49,790 bases of DNA from positions 1 through 49,790 of the forward strand of contig NZ_JAUXNK010000011.1 in assembly GCF_030682845.1 (NCBI RefSeq), given 5' to 3'. This DNA comes from Methanolobus sp. (GTDB taxonomy: Archaea; Halobacteriota; Methanosarcinia; Methanosarcinales; Methanosarcinaceae). Below are positions 28,884 to 35,661 of the stretch, in pieces. Made by a program: the position numbers and the translations under genes. Position 1 is the stretch's first letter, and each line of letters begins with the position of its first letter. A model generated the notes under the pieces. That model worked only from the letters and a program-made list of their open reading frames with translations. It was not told the origin of the DNA and made no database searches.

Positions 28884-29992
28884 TCAATAAAACCTTCCAA
28901 ATGAATTTCTTTTCGTAAACCCACTCTGCAGTTCTGTAAGTACAAGCAACTGATACGATACAAAACTTAGTAGAGAGTAGAGTTTCCCACTCTCTGCTCT
29001 AACTCTTCTTATATCGAACTTGACCACATCCTTAATGTGTCCATGTTTTGGTTCACATTCTCCTCTTTTCTTGTACAGGCTAAGGAACAATCTGTCTCTC
29101 ATATTTTGATTCCGCAAGTACATTCCAACCTGTTCAGACCTTCCATTTTCATAGAGAAACTTTAATTTAACTTCAATACTTGCATGTACATCTTCACCTA
29201 TATCCCACATTTTATTTACCCAGTGATCAATTCGGTCAATTTCACCCTCTTTGCTGATCACAGCATTTTTAGGATAAGCAATAACTGGTCTTGCATTCAG
29301 ATGATACCAGATATCTTCATGATTTGTAAATGCTTTATAACCCGTATCAGCTGAATAAAGATCAATATCCGCATTCATTTTTTTCAATGCTTCAACATGT
29401 TTGATAAGTTCGGGGGAATCCCCTGCTTTGCCATTTGTATGTGTCATGAAAACAGGATAGGTTCCTACCATTGTAATGTGGGCTTTGTCCATCTTGCATT
29501 CGTAATGAGAATTGTAATCAGCATATTTATCGTATCTTGAGGCTTCAAGCGGAGTTGAATCGATCTTAGCTTCTCTTATTTGAGTAAGTTTGAGAATCCT
29601 TTCACCGACTAACATCATTATTTCACTGATTCCATCTTCGCCCAATCGGTATTTACAAAATTATGTAATGTCTTTGGTGAAGGAAGTTTTATGACACCAT
29701 TGTCATCGTAAAAAGCGAGCAGTATTGCTTCTTCCTCAGTTAAAGAGGCCATAGTTTTCTCATAGGATAACTGCCTGAAACACATCACAATGAAGAGTTT
29801 TATCATTGAGGAAATGCTATACTTAAAATGCCAACTGTTGTTGGCATACACAGTACGTTCTAAGTACTGTGAAATATCTTCTATGCAGAGGAAGTGCAGG
29901 AATTGGCAAATTGAGGCGCTTTCTCTGTTCAGATAGTTTTCAATGGACTCCTCAAACTTGACTCCTCCATACATTCTAGATTTTTTAGCCAT
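28884..29992 (-). pseudogene. Transposase (IS1182/IS5-like), frameshifted
   Basis: ATG 29992 begins MAKKSRMYGG and encodes an N-terminal domain of about 120 residues, ending KTLHNFVNTDW. The catalytic domain continues in the -1 frame from about 29640 (GEDGISEIMML), with AKIDSTPLEA and YSADTGYKAF as probable DDE segments and a late KKRGECEPKHGHIKDV region. The two parts join if TGGG became TGGGG at about 29639. There is no slippery heptamer, so an inactivating or sequencing indel is likelier than programmed shifting. Confidence 0.75.
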
Positions 29993-30027
29993 GAGGCGGG
30001 CCAGATTTATGCTATTTATAGCTACCG

Positions 30028-30050
30028 CCCCCCCCCCCAAAAAAAAAAAA
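30028..30050 (-). repeat. Homopolymer pair: C11 then A12
   Basis: On the transposase coding strand this reads T12 then G11 and lies about 36 bases before its ATG. It parallels the G10 tract of the IS1 element. Confidence 0.6.
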
Positions 30051-32081: not shown

Positions 32082-32893
<812 letters not shown>

Positions 32894-33125: not shown

Positions 33126-33761
33126 TTATTCAGCAAAGATGACCTTCACTTCAGTAACATCCCAGAGAGATTGAATCTTTTCTATTATATCTTCCCTTAT
33201 GGCTGCGGCAAACTGGTGGTTGGAAGGCAGATCAAGCAGTATCCTGACAGATCCTTCCTTTACGTCTATCTTTGTCACCAGTTCCGTCCTGACGATGTCC
33301 AGCCCTGCCATGGGATTCATGACATGCTTGAGCCGGTTCCTGACCACGACCTCGGTGGTAGGCTCCTTTGCGCTCACAAGTCCATGCTTCTCCTCATAGT
33401 CACGTATCGCAGACCTGAGGCCTTCAACGGCAAGCACCGAGCAGTGGGCTTTTACCGGCGGGAGACCTCCAAGCTCTTCGGTGGCCTGTTTCCAGCTTAT
33501 CTCTTTTGCTTCATCGATGGTTTTGCCTTTGGCCAGCTCAGTGATTATTGAAGCTGTGGCAATATTGGATGCACATCCGTATGATTCGAACTTCACGTCA
33601 TCTATGACCTTTGTTTCCGGGTTGACCTGCAGGTAAACTGCAACCATGTCACCACAGGCGGGGCTGCCTTCCAGCCCTTTACCATCCGGGTTCTCCATCT
33701 TTCCCACATTCCGGGGGTTTTTGAAATGCTCTAGAACTTTCTCACTGTATGGGAACTTCAT
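33126..33761 (-). CDS. iscU: IscU-type Fe-S scaffold fused to a DUF59 (MIP18-like) domain
   Basis: Scaffold for Fe-S cluster assembly. Residues 1-125 are IscU with the three cluster Cys (C36 in SPACGD, C63 in GCASN, C107 in AHCSV) and Asp38. Residues about 135-211 form a DUF59/MIP18-like domain (NRLKHVMNPMAGLDIV, then IREDIIEKIQSLWDVTEVKV) used in Fe-S targeting; its usual Cys in GCP is replaced by SNH. It is the last gene of a minus-strand operon after tusA, dsrE and iscS, which supply sulfur and partner function. Confidence 0.88.
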   Translation of the reverse strand: MKFPYSEKVLEHFKNPRNVGKMENPDGKGLEGSPACGDMVAVYLQVNPETKVIDDVKFESYGCASNIATASIITELAKGKTIDEAKEISWKQATEELGGLPPVKAHCSVLAVEGLRSAIRDYEEKHGLVSAKEPTTEVVVRNRLKHVMNPMAGLDIVRTELVTKIDVKEGSVRILLDLPSNHQFAAAIREDIIEKIQSLWDVTEVKVIFAE

Positions 33762-33800: not shown

Positions 33801-34973
33801 TCATTTATTTTTCTCGTAAAGCGGACTGATAGCCCTAAGCTGTGCCACTATTTCTTTCACGGCATCGATTATGCCGTCCACATCATCCATAGTGTTATAG
33901 CGTCCAAAGCTAAAGCGCAGGGATCCGTGCGCTCTTTCATGATTCCCGCCTATGCCCATGATCACATGGCTTGCCTCAAGTGACCGGCTGAAGCAGGCGG
34001 AGCCGGTGCTCACTGCAAATCCTCTCATGTCCAGATGCAGTGTCATTGATTCGCCTTCAACATAGTGGAAAGTTACGTTCGCGTTCTGCGGTACACGCTG
34101 ATGCCTGCTGCCATTCAGCGTCACATGGGGGACCTCCTCCTCAGCTCTCTTTATGGTATGGTCCCTCAGAGATGCAAGAAATTTATTTTCCTCAGGTGTC
34201 ACAAGCTCCACGGCCTTTGCAAACCCGACAGCTCCCGGGATGTTCTCAAGTCCTGCACGGCGATTGGATTCCTGGAATCCTCCATCCATCCACTTGTGGA
34301 TGGGTGTGCCCTCCCGGATATACAATGCCCCGACACCCCTTGGACCGTGGATGGTATGTGCGGACATCGTTACAAGGTCAACTGGTATCTTGCTGACGTC
34401 GATAGGCACCCTGGTGAAACTATGTGTCGCATCTGTGTGCAGCAGCACATCCTTCTCTTTACAGATCTCTGCAATGGCCTTTAGGTCCTGGAGAGTCCCT
34501 ATCTCCTGGTTCGCATGCTGTATGGAAACAAGGGTAGTGTTCTCGTTAATGGCACTTTCAAGTTCTTCCAGGTCAAGCACACCTTCGGGACTCACACTGA
34601 TATAATCTGCCTTATAACCCTGTTTTTCCAGGGCCCTAGCGGTATTGAGCACGGGGAAATCCTCGATCTTTGAGACAATTATGTGATTGCCTTTCTTTTT
34701 GGTGAGAGCCGAGGCGACACCTTTGATTGCCATGTTGCTTGATTCCGTTTCACCGGAAGTGAGCACGATCTCATCCGCAGTTGCCCCCAGGAATGAAGAT
34801 ATCGTTGCACGTGCACTCTCAAGCCCTTCCTTGGCATCGATACCCATGGAGTAACCGAACTCTGAAGTGGCTACTGCGTAAGTATCGAAGTAGTATGGTT
34901 TCATAGCATCCAGCACCCTTTCATCAAGGCGGGTACTGGCAGCGTTATCAAGATAAACTGTCTTATCCAACAT
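33801..34973 (-). CDS. iscS: IscS/NifS-like protein lacking the PLP lysine
   Basis: 390 residues of fold-type I aminotransferase fold, closely IscS-like: YLDNAASTRLD at the start, ETESSN, the pyridine-binding D181 (HTDATHS) and the mobile-loop Cys327 (TGSACFS). However, the Schiff-base lysine of the S-x-HK motif is Thr207 (SAHTIHGPRG) and the catalytic His of the TEH motif is Asp105. Archaeoglobus IscS also lacks this lysine and still forms an IscU-IscS cluster complex. This protein is therefore unlikely to be a PLP cysteine desulfurase; it may hold persulfide from TusA/DsrE or serve as a fourth cluster ligand for IscU. Confidence 0.85.
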   Translation of the reverse strand: MLDKTVYLDNAASTRLDERVLDAMKPYYFDTYAVATSEFGYSMGIDAKEGLESARATISSFLGATADEIVLTSGETESSNMAIKGVASALTKKKGNHIIVSKIEDFPVLNTARALEKQGYKADYISVSPEGVLDLEELESAINENTTLVSIQHANQEIGTLQDLKAIAEICKEKDVLLHTDATHSFTRVPIDVSKIPVDLVTMSAHTIHGPRGVGALYIREGTPIHKWMDGGFQESNRRAGLENIPGAVGFAKAVELVTPEENKFLASLRDHTIKRAEEEVPHVTLNGSRHQRVPQNANVTFHYVEGESMTLHLDMRGFAVSTGSACFSRSLEASHVIMGIGGNHERAHGSLRFSFGRYNTMDDVDGIIDAVKEIVAQLRAISPLYEKNK

Positions 34974-35007: not shown

Positions 35008-35427
35008 CTAAATGAAAAGTGTGATACTGGCATCCTTTGCTTCATGGATGTAAGTGCCAACTGCTCCGTAATCATCTATCCATTCCCTGCGGAGCTCCTC
35101 AGGCTTTATCCCCATTATTTCCATTGTCATCTCACAGGCTATTATCCTGCCGCCGAGTTCTTTGTAATCCTCCATGAGCTTCTCAAGCGGCGCGACATTG
35201 GCTTTCTTCATTCTCTTGCCGACCATCCACTTTCCAAGTCCCAGCATGTGCATCTTTGATAAGGGCCCTTTCTCCAGGCCCCCTTTCTTAAGCCGCTGCA
35301 GTCCCCAGAATGTGAAATACAGGGATGCCTCCATTCCCATGGAAAGAGCGCCATTGCCTATTATGAGGGCACTGTATATCTTGTCCAGGTCCCCGCTGTG
35401 AACCACGATAACTGTCTTTCCGGACAT
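35008..35427 (-). CDS. DsrE/F-like sulfur relay protein
   Basis: 139 residues of the DsrE/DsrF/YrkE-like family. N-terminal strand KTVIVVHSGDLDKIYSALIIG, then ALSMGMEASLYFTFWG, and the conserved Cys98 in GGRIIACEMTMEIMG that can carry persulfide. Located between tusA and iscS in one operon with 12-34 base gaps, so it probably receives or stores sulfane sulfur. Confidence 0.85.
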   Translation of the reverse strand: MSGKTVIVVHSGDLDKIYSALIIGNGALSMGMEASLYFTFWGLQRLKKGGLEKGPLSKMHMLGLGKWMVGKRMKKANVAPLEKLMEDYKELGGRIIACEMTMEIMGIKPEELRREWIDDYGAVGTYIHEAKDASITLFI

Positions 35428-35439
35428 TTTAACCGCCGC

Positions 35440-35661
35440 CTATCTTTTTATCCTTATCTTCCAGTCGTTGTCTTTACCTTCGATATCAACAACTTCAAGC
35501 CCCATAGCCTCACAAGCCATAGGTATCTCTTTTTTTGAAGCAGGGTGTGTTCCCATGACCACTACCTCATCTCCAGGCGATGCTTTTCTCAGTGCTTTAC
35601 GGCATTCCACGAGAGGGACAGGACATGTCTGACCCCTTACATCAATTTCCACCTTTGCCAT
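35440..35661 (-). CDS. tusA: TusA/SirA-like sulfur carrier
   Basis: 73-residue carrier with the C-P-x-P motif: DVRGQTCPVPLVECRKAL, persulfide on Cys13. First gene of the operon tusA-dsrE-iscS-iscU on the minus strand; 12 bases separate it from dsrE. The set forms a complete-looking sulfur transfer chain into Fe-S scaffolding. Confidence 0.9.
   Translation of the reverse strand: MAKVEIDVRGQTCPVPLVECRKALRKASPGDEVVVMGTHPASKKEIPMACEAMGLEVVDIEGKDNDWKIRIKR

Follow-up and report, generated by a model that had tools for sequence, protein, structure and literature searches.

A lysine-less IscS homologue in a conserved TusA-DsrE-IscS-IscU operon of Methanolobus and its probable role in an iron-sulfur module that does not itself draw sulfur from cysteine

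The closest described relatives of the system reported here come from Methanosarcina acetivorans and Archaeoglobus fulgidus. M. acetivorans encodes three IscS-IscU pairs, one of which joins an IscS without the catalytic lysine (IscS1, MA0808) to a 24 kDa partner, IscU1 (MA0807) (PMC7585200). The A. fulgidus IscS, as described in the same paper, provides a cysteine ligand to the IscU-bound cluster and has no desulfurase activity, and an equivalent role for M. acetivorans IscS1 has already been proposed by its authors. Their recombinant IscS1 was insoluble and formed inclusion bodies, and Table 1 of the paper lists MA0808 among the proteins found in the proteome (PMC7585200). TusA and DsrE are unmentioned in that account, which refers to the genes near MA0808 as being of unknown function, and the words IscS, TusA, DsrE and lysine are absent from a J Bacteriol survey of 326 methanogen-type genomes (PMC8351635). 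In E. coli IscS, the H104Q, Q183E and K206A substitutions each abolish desulfurase activity, with PLP binding partly preserved in the K206A variant (PMC9978102). E. coli TusA acts in tRNA thiolation, and structures of the IscS-TusA complex (3LVJ/3LVK) place the two cysteines about 4 Å apart (PMC2854127). Both the missing lysine and the parallel with Archaeoglobus are thus published for M. acetivorans IscS1 (PMC7585200), and we claim no novelty for the substitution as such.

We examined an IscS1-type locus in Methanolobus sp. The window, by which we mean the whole stretch of DNA analysed, comprises 49,790 nucleotides (contig NZ_JAUXNK010000011.1, positions 1 to 49,790). The relevant features are as follows.

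35440..35661, minus strand: tusA, encoding a 73-aa TusA-family sulfur carrier with Cys13 in a CPxP motif (Pfam TusA, 3e-22)
35008..35427, minus strand: dsrE, encoding a 139-aa DsrE-family (DsrE2-like) sulfurtransferase with a single cysteine, Cys98 (Pfam DrsE_2, 2.8e-35)
33801..34973, minus strand: iscS1, encoding a 390-aa lysine-less IscS homologue (Pfam Aminotran_5)
34353..34355, minus strand: Thr207 codon (ACC), at the PLP lysine position (E. coli K206)
33993..33995, minus strand: Cys327 codon, the mobile-loop cysteine (E. coli C328)
33126..33761, minus strand: iscU1, encoding a 211-aa NifU_N scaffold with a C-terminal DUF59/FeS_assembly_P domain (Pfam, 8.4e-43 and 4e-14)

The four genes follow one another on the minus strand in the order tusA-dsrE-iscS1-iscU1, separated by gaps of 12, 34 and 39 nt, and iscS1 is open from its ATG at 34973 to its TGA at 33801. 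The sequence-only reading of this DNA had described an intact operon with a complete IscU, and this description holds: all four genes are present, and IscU1 has the ligand residues Cys36, Asp38, Cys63, His106 and Cys107. The operon TusA is the sole TusA-domain match in the window genome. Elsewhere in the window, a gene for an MsrA-type methionine sulfoxide reductase (32082-32687, plus strand; Pfam PMSR, 2.7e-55) reads GAGSFWR at its catalytic site, where we take GCFWG to be the expected cysteine motif; the serine is shared with Methanolobus sp. Soudan_28 (L208). In the interval 28884-30040 on the minus strand, an ORF encoding a DDE transposase domain (28884-29645) overlaps a second ORF (29618-30040), and the two resemble a single transposase split by a frameshift. 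A RuBisCO large subunit gene is found, in a methanogen, at 666-2174 on the plus strand (Pfam RuBisCO_large, 2.7e-93).

The IscS1 active site is altered at several positions. The motif SAHTIHGPRG (residues 204-213) aligns Thr207 with the PLP lysine of E. coli IscS (K206), and KIEDFPVL places Asp105 at the catalytic histidine (H104). Both replacements had been called beforehand and are confirmed, as is the retention of Asp181 (E. coli D180) and of the mobile Cys327 (E. coli C328), which belongs to an STGSACFS loop at residues 322-329. Further pocket changes had escaped the earlier reading, namely Gln183 to His184, Asn155 to Gln156 and Thr243 to Leu. At the catalytic His104 and Gln183 positions of IscS/NifS desulfurases (EC 2.8.1.7), IscS1 carries Asp105 and His184. 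The protein falls below all NCBIfam cysteine-desulfurase equivalog cut-offs (431 bits for NifS against a cut-off of 530.75), and the IscS paralogue on contig C90 of the same genome exceeds the NifS cut-off. An AlphaFold2 model of IscS1 has a pLDDT of 74, with low values in the cysteine loop (316-349), and Foldseek searches with it recover NFS1, A. fulgidus IscS and E. coli IscS at a TM-score of about 0.8.

These replacements are fixed throughout the family. We aligned 158 rows of the IscS1 type without dereplication. K206T, Q183H and N155Q each occur in 158/158 and H104D in 157/157, so that the loss of the lysine maps to every member sampled, and the Cys328 position is cysteine in 157/157. Thr243 is replaced across the rows, mostly by Leu, Val or Ile. 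The partner proteins are equally constant at their functional cysteines, with TusA Cys13 in 71/71 and DsrE Cys98 in 69/69 counterparts, and IscU Cys36, Cys63 and Cys107 in 79/79. Values of dN/dS for iscS1 against four close relatives are 0.026-0.038; in related genomes, the Lys-bearing IscS3 gives 0.07-0.24. Because fixation is family-wide and dN/dS is low, the pocket appears to have been remodelled under selection and not to be decaying. Three sites essential in E. coli IscS are replaced, fixed and under strong purifying selection, which supports the suggestion that the protein is kept without desulfurase chemistry, and we infer from its sequence that IscS1 has no desulfurase activity.

The family extends well beyond Methanosarcinaceae. 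Genome searches found copies with 67-100% identity in many Methanosarcinaceae genera, including Methanosarcina orthologues that are 71-76% identical and likewise lie in this operon. The window IscS1 forms one clade with the copies from these Methanosarcina genomes (100/99 for the Methanosarcinaceae part). Named GTDB contigs were scanned with patterns at residues 22-39, clear of the lysine site, giving 155 relatives of which 80 were taken. Among these 80 of 155, the archaeal carriers are Methanolobus, Methanococcoides, Methanomethylovorans, Methanohalophilus, Methanosarcina, Methanofastidiosa, Theionarchaea, Altiarchaeales, Heimdallarchaeota and Thermoplasmatota, and the bacterial carriers are Chloroflexota, Atribacterota, Myxococcota, Nitrospirota and Actinomycetota. 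Many of the Chloroflexota are Dehalococcoidia, and two of their records are titled chromosomes (CP070842.1 and CP070645.1). The scan, by reaching Bacteria, overturned the notion of an oddity restricted to Methanosarcinaceae. The 80 taken from the 155 all carry this remodelled pocket, apart from isolated deviations at His205, and in most of them tusA, dsrE and an IscU of about 211 aa adjoin iscS1. Members outside Methanosarcinaceae are mostly metagenome-assembled genomes, and independent assemblies agree. On the tree, the IscS1 family is a single clade (100/99), within which the Methanosarcinaceae sequences (100/99) separate from a group of mixed bacterial and archaeal origin (97/90). One genome from another family of the same class (G195:C100; L070, L118) carries the whole operon; its IscS1 clusters with those of Dehalococcoidia (93/88), suggesting either transfer or a misbinned contig.

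A second group of lysine-less proteins includes the A. fulgidus IscS, whose structure (PDB 4eb5) has SSND at the lysine site and for which 4r5f is a D199K mutant. In this clade K206D, H205N and Q183A each occur in 19/19 sequences, H104 is kept and Asn155 mostly so. Further Halobacteriota-type genomes besides A. fulgidus contribute to it, and we read these as ANME-like and Archaeoglobi-like. Its members also lie in tusA-dsrE-iscS-iscU operons, with TusA and DsrE proteins of other subfamilies. The parallel with Archaeoglobus IscS drawn in the sequence-only reading therefore extends from the missing lysine to the gene layout, and the pocket replacements differ. In some of these loci (L105:173-1498, L106, L107, L086) the A. 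fulgidus-type IscU is a fusion of 441-446 aa with a pyridine-nucleotide-disulfide oxidoreductase. In a further IscS homologue (L168:1402-2628) Gln takes the place of the lysine (SSNQ); there is a TusA match nearby and a 213-aa IscU whose C-terminal part has no recognised domain, and the position of this IscS on the tree is unsure owing to its long branch. Thr-type and Asp-type proteins form two separate monophyletic groups in 200/200 bootstraps with the active-site columns masked. Two clearly independent losses of the lysine, favoured by the best trees, were nevertheless not retained as a conclusion. AU tests are compatible with one joint lysine-less clade, both with the active-site columns masked (p 0.30 and 0.18) and unmasked (p 0.58 and 0.79, the joint tree even scoring higher).

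Loss of the lysine is closely associated with TusA and DsrE. One or both are encoded within about 1.5 kb of 32 of the 34 dereplicated lysine-less IscS genes (15/17 for the Thr type and 16/16 for the Asp type), as against 1 of the 57 Lys-bearing genes, and that single gene shares its locus with a lysine-less one. The TusA and DsrE queries were taken from the window and other loci, with E. coli TusA as one further TusA query. The association gives a Fisher p of 4.8e-21, a value that is uncorrected for kinship and not phylogenetically independent, since the tree offers only one or two lineages and hence 1-2 independent contrasts. Both exceptions are Methanococcoides-like genomes (group g3) in which the tusA-dsrE pair is intact and located elsewhere. 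In these loci (L037, L055) iscSU1 is separated from tusA-dsrE, and upstream of iscS1 in L037 is a gene that by eye looks similar to thiazole synthases of the Thi4 family. A DsrE orthologue is present in 19/19 genomes with IscS1 and in 0/28 relatives without it; the 28 include three genomes, each from a different genus (G018, G032 and G141), that lack IscS1 though congeners have it, where assembly gaps are possible. The idea that TusA and DsrE may serve as an alternative sulfur source is thus strongly supported by linkage and co-occurrence.

We propose that IscS1 is probably a non-desulfurase IscS within a four-protein iron-sulfur module that takes no sulfur from cysteine itself. Because the same gene set recurs across anaerobic archaea and bacteria, the module looks like a means of Fe-S assembly without cysteine. 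Sulfane sulfur would come from a sulfide-derived persulfide or polysulfide, or from another desulfurase, and would be carried as a persulfide on TusA Cys13 and DsrE Cys98. It might then pass to IscU1 through Cys327 of IscS1, with the known IscS-TusA contact reversed, or it might go straight to IscU1, with Cys327 adding one more ligand to the cluster, in the manner of the A. fulgidus IscS-IscU structure. Either way IscS1 would act as a docking platform that also contributes a cysteine to IscU1. Which way the sulfur moves, where it originates and the binding of a cluster are conjectural elements of this scheme. Points that we count against it are the retention of the PLP-site residues Asp181, Thr76 and His206 and the changes at two TusA-contact positions described below.

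The strongest competing explanation, which we nonetheless consider unlikely, makes IscS1 a structural partner only. It would dock IscU1 and offer Cys327 as a ligand or as part of a chaperone function, IscU1 would use free sulfide, and TusA and DsrE would work elsewhere. The A. fulgidus precedent, an inactive IscS that ligates the IscU cluster (as described in PMC7585200), agrees with this explanation, and the E. coli role of TusA (PMC2854127) shows what TusA and DsrE could be doing if merely co-transcribed, for example serving tRNA thiolation. The E. coli IscS residues that contact TusA are partly kept in IscS1: R55 and E49 are retained and W45 and R237 are not. Owing to these two changes we dropped the contact residues as proof of TusA docking. 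The absence of the DsrE orthologue from all 28 IscS1-less relatives tested, and its retention with TusA in the genomes where the pair has moved, stand against a structural partner that is indifferent to the sulfur carriers. Such linkage speaks against a separate TusA/DsrE pathway because an unrelated pathway would not require it.

Cysteine-derived sulfur could still reach the proposed module if an active desulfurase worked in trans, with IscS3 or a SufS/Csd-type enzyme loading TusA and DsrE or IscU1; we judge this improbable as well. The window genome does contain candidates. Its second IscS-IscU pair, on contig C90 (L004), has an active-looking IscS3 with the normal lysine and histidine (SSHKLHGPKG), and the genome further encodes three class V proteins of SufS/Csd-like type. 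The IscU3 of this pair (L004:2674-3039) has lost two cluster ligands, with Asp at Cys37 and Arg at His105; in its counterparts (L072-L080, L087-L089) Cys37 is likewise replaced by Asp and His105 by Arg, Asp or Lys. Since NifU_N turned up in just two genes of the window genome and IscU3 is altered, the sole IscU with full ligands there is the partner of the lysine-less IscS. A related ligand change affects one IscU copy in Methanosarcina-type genomes. Against a requirement for IscS3, in twelve genomes from two genera no IscS other than IscS1 matches at 1e-60, and no NifU_N protein other than IscU1 was found. IscS1-IscU1 is the sole pair in these genomes and therefore needs no Lys-bearing IscS, though SufS/Csd-like enzymes are present. 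The bacterial hosts also argue against supply in trans, as they mostly possess an intact second IscS-IscU pair. We considered reciprocal decay, in which an active IscS3 with a damaged IscU complements an inactive IscS1 with a complete one, as a general rule and rejected it; Methanolobus and a number of its sister genera follow the pattern, but the second IscU is mostly intact in bacterial hosts.

Less probable again is that IscS1 performs some other lysine-free PLP or PMP chemistry, or that its remodelled pocket holds a different ligand or a metal. Several PLP-site residues are kept in the IscS1 rows, namely Asp181 (E. coli Asp180) in 158/158, Thr76 in 155/157 and His206 (E. coli His205) in 156/158, and the strict fixation of Asp105, Gln156 and His184 gives the pocket the look of a selected site. 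With Asp181, Thr76 and His206 retained, residual PLP or PMP binding or a new ligand site is possible, and E. coli K206A provides a precedent for the former (PMC9978102). Thr243, on the other hand, is gone from IscS1, and the A. fulgidus type combines a different pocket with the same operon, for which reason the pocket may not matter. To our knowledge, no IscS or NifS functions without the lysine. One specific form of this thought, which we offer as a long shot, is a cysteine-independent TusA-DsrE-IscS1-IscU1 system in which the former PLP pocket (Asp105, Gln156, Asp181, His184, His206 and Thr207) would bind a sulfur intermediate or else a metal, for example Fe(II). That IscS1 is a paralogue in decay, or that codon 207 was misread in sequencing, is scarcely credible: the insolubility of recombinant M. 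acetivorans IscS1 and the existence of other class V copies in the genome might hint at it, but Thr207 is invariant (158/158) across many independent assemblies, dN/dS is about 0.03, the operon is intact, the pair is the sole Isc pair in twelve genomes and MA0808 is listed as detected in the M. acetivorans proteome (PMC7585200), and we ruled out both error and pseudogene.

SufBC is dispensable on sulfide in M. acetivorans, where both SufBC systems were deleted with no lasting defect (PMC10500019), and IscS2U2 is likewise dispensable on sulfide and matters only on cysteine (PMC7585200). As these losses are tolerated on sulfide, the module fits the resulting gap, and it represents a concrete, deletable candidate for a sulfide-based Fe-S route in Methanosarcina. 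It also offers an explanation for how sulfur might be supplied to the inactive A. fulgidus IscS. Automatic annotation as 'cysteine desulfurase' is unsafe in many anaerobes, Dehalococcoidia included. The cross-domain family, its fixed pocket and the link between lysine loss and TusA/DsrE were not found in the literature that we searched and are new here.

Among known systems, the M. acetivorans IscS1-IscU1 pair is the nearest, being alike in the missing lysine, the STGSACFS loop and the adjacent IscU of about 24 kDa with all ligands; to that account we add the TusA and DsrE neighbours, the fixed His184/Gln156/Asp105 pocket and the bacterial spread. A. fulgidus IscS (4eb5, 4hvk; D199) shares the IscS fold without a PLP lysine, the mobile cysteine and a complete IscU partner. 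It differs in its pocket (K206D, H205N and Q183A with H104 kept, against K206T, H104D, N155Q and Q183H in IscS1) and in its IscU, which lacks the DUF59 fusion of IscU1. Canonical IscS, NifS and NFS1 proteins resemble IscS1 in fold (TM-score about 0.8 to 5wlw and 1p3w), dimer-type sequence, SGSAC loop and IscU neighbour, whereas five PLP contacts, the lysine among them, are missing from IscS1. In the E. coli IscS-TusA system sulfur flows from IscS to TusA; the contacts are partly kept in IscS1, for which we propose the opposite direction. The DsrE and TusA carriers of the Metallosphaera cuprina type similarly hold sulfur from an inorganic source on conserved cysteines (PMC4175335), but those of sulfur oxidizers serve dissimilatory oxidation alongside Hdr-like genes, whereas the IscS1 operon pairs its carriers with an Fe-S scaffold. 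The archaeal MIS (IscSU) and SMS (SufBC) systems are, like the present module, minimal anaerobic routes of scaffold-based Fe-S assembly; SMS, too, is devoid of a cysteine desulfurase and is able to use sulfide (PMC12192291). The definition of MIS includes an active cysteine desulfurase, and the SMS scaffold is unrelated, whereas the IscS1 module would be ISC-type, desulfurase-free and equipped with sulfur carriers of its own.
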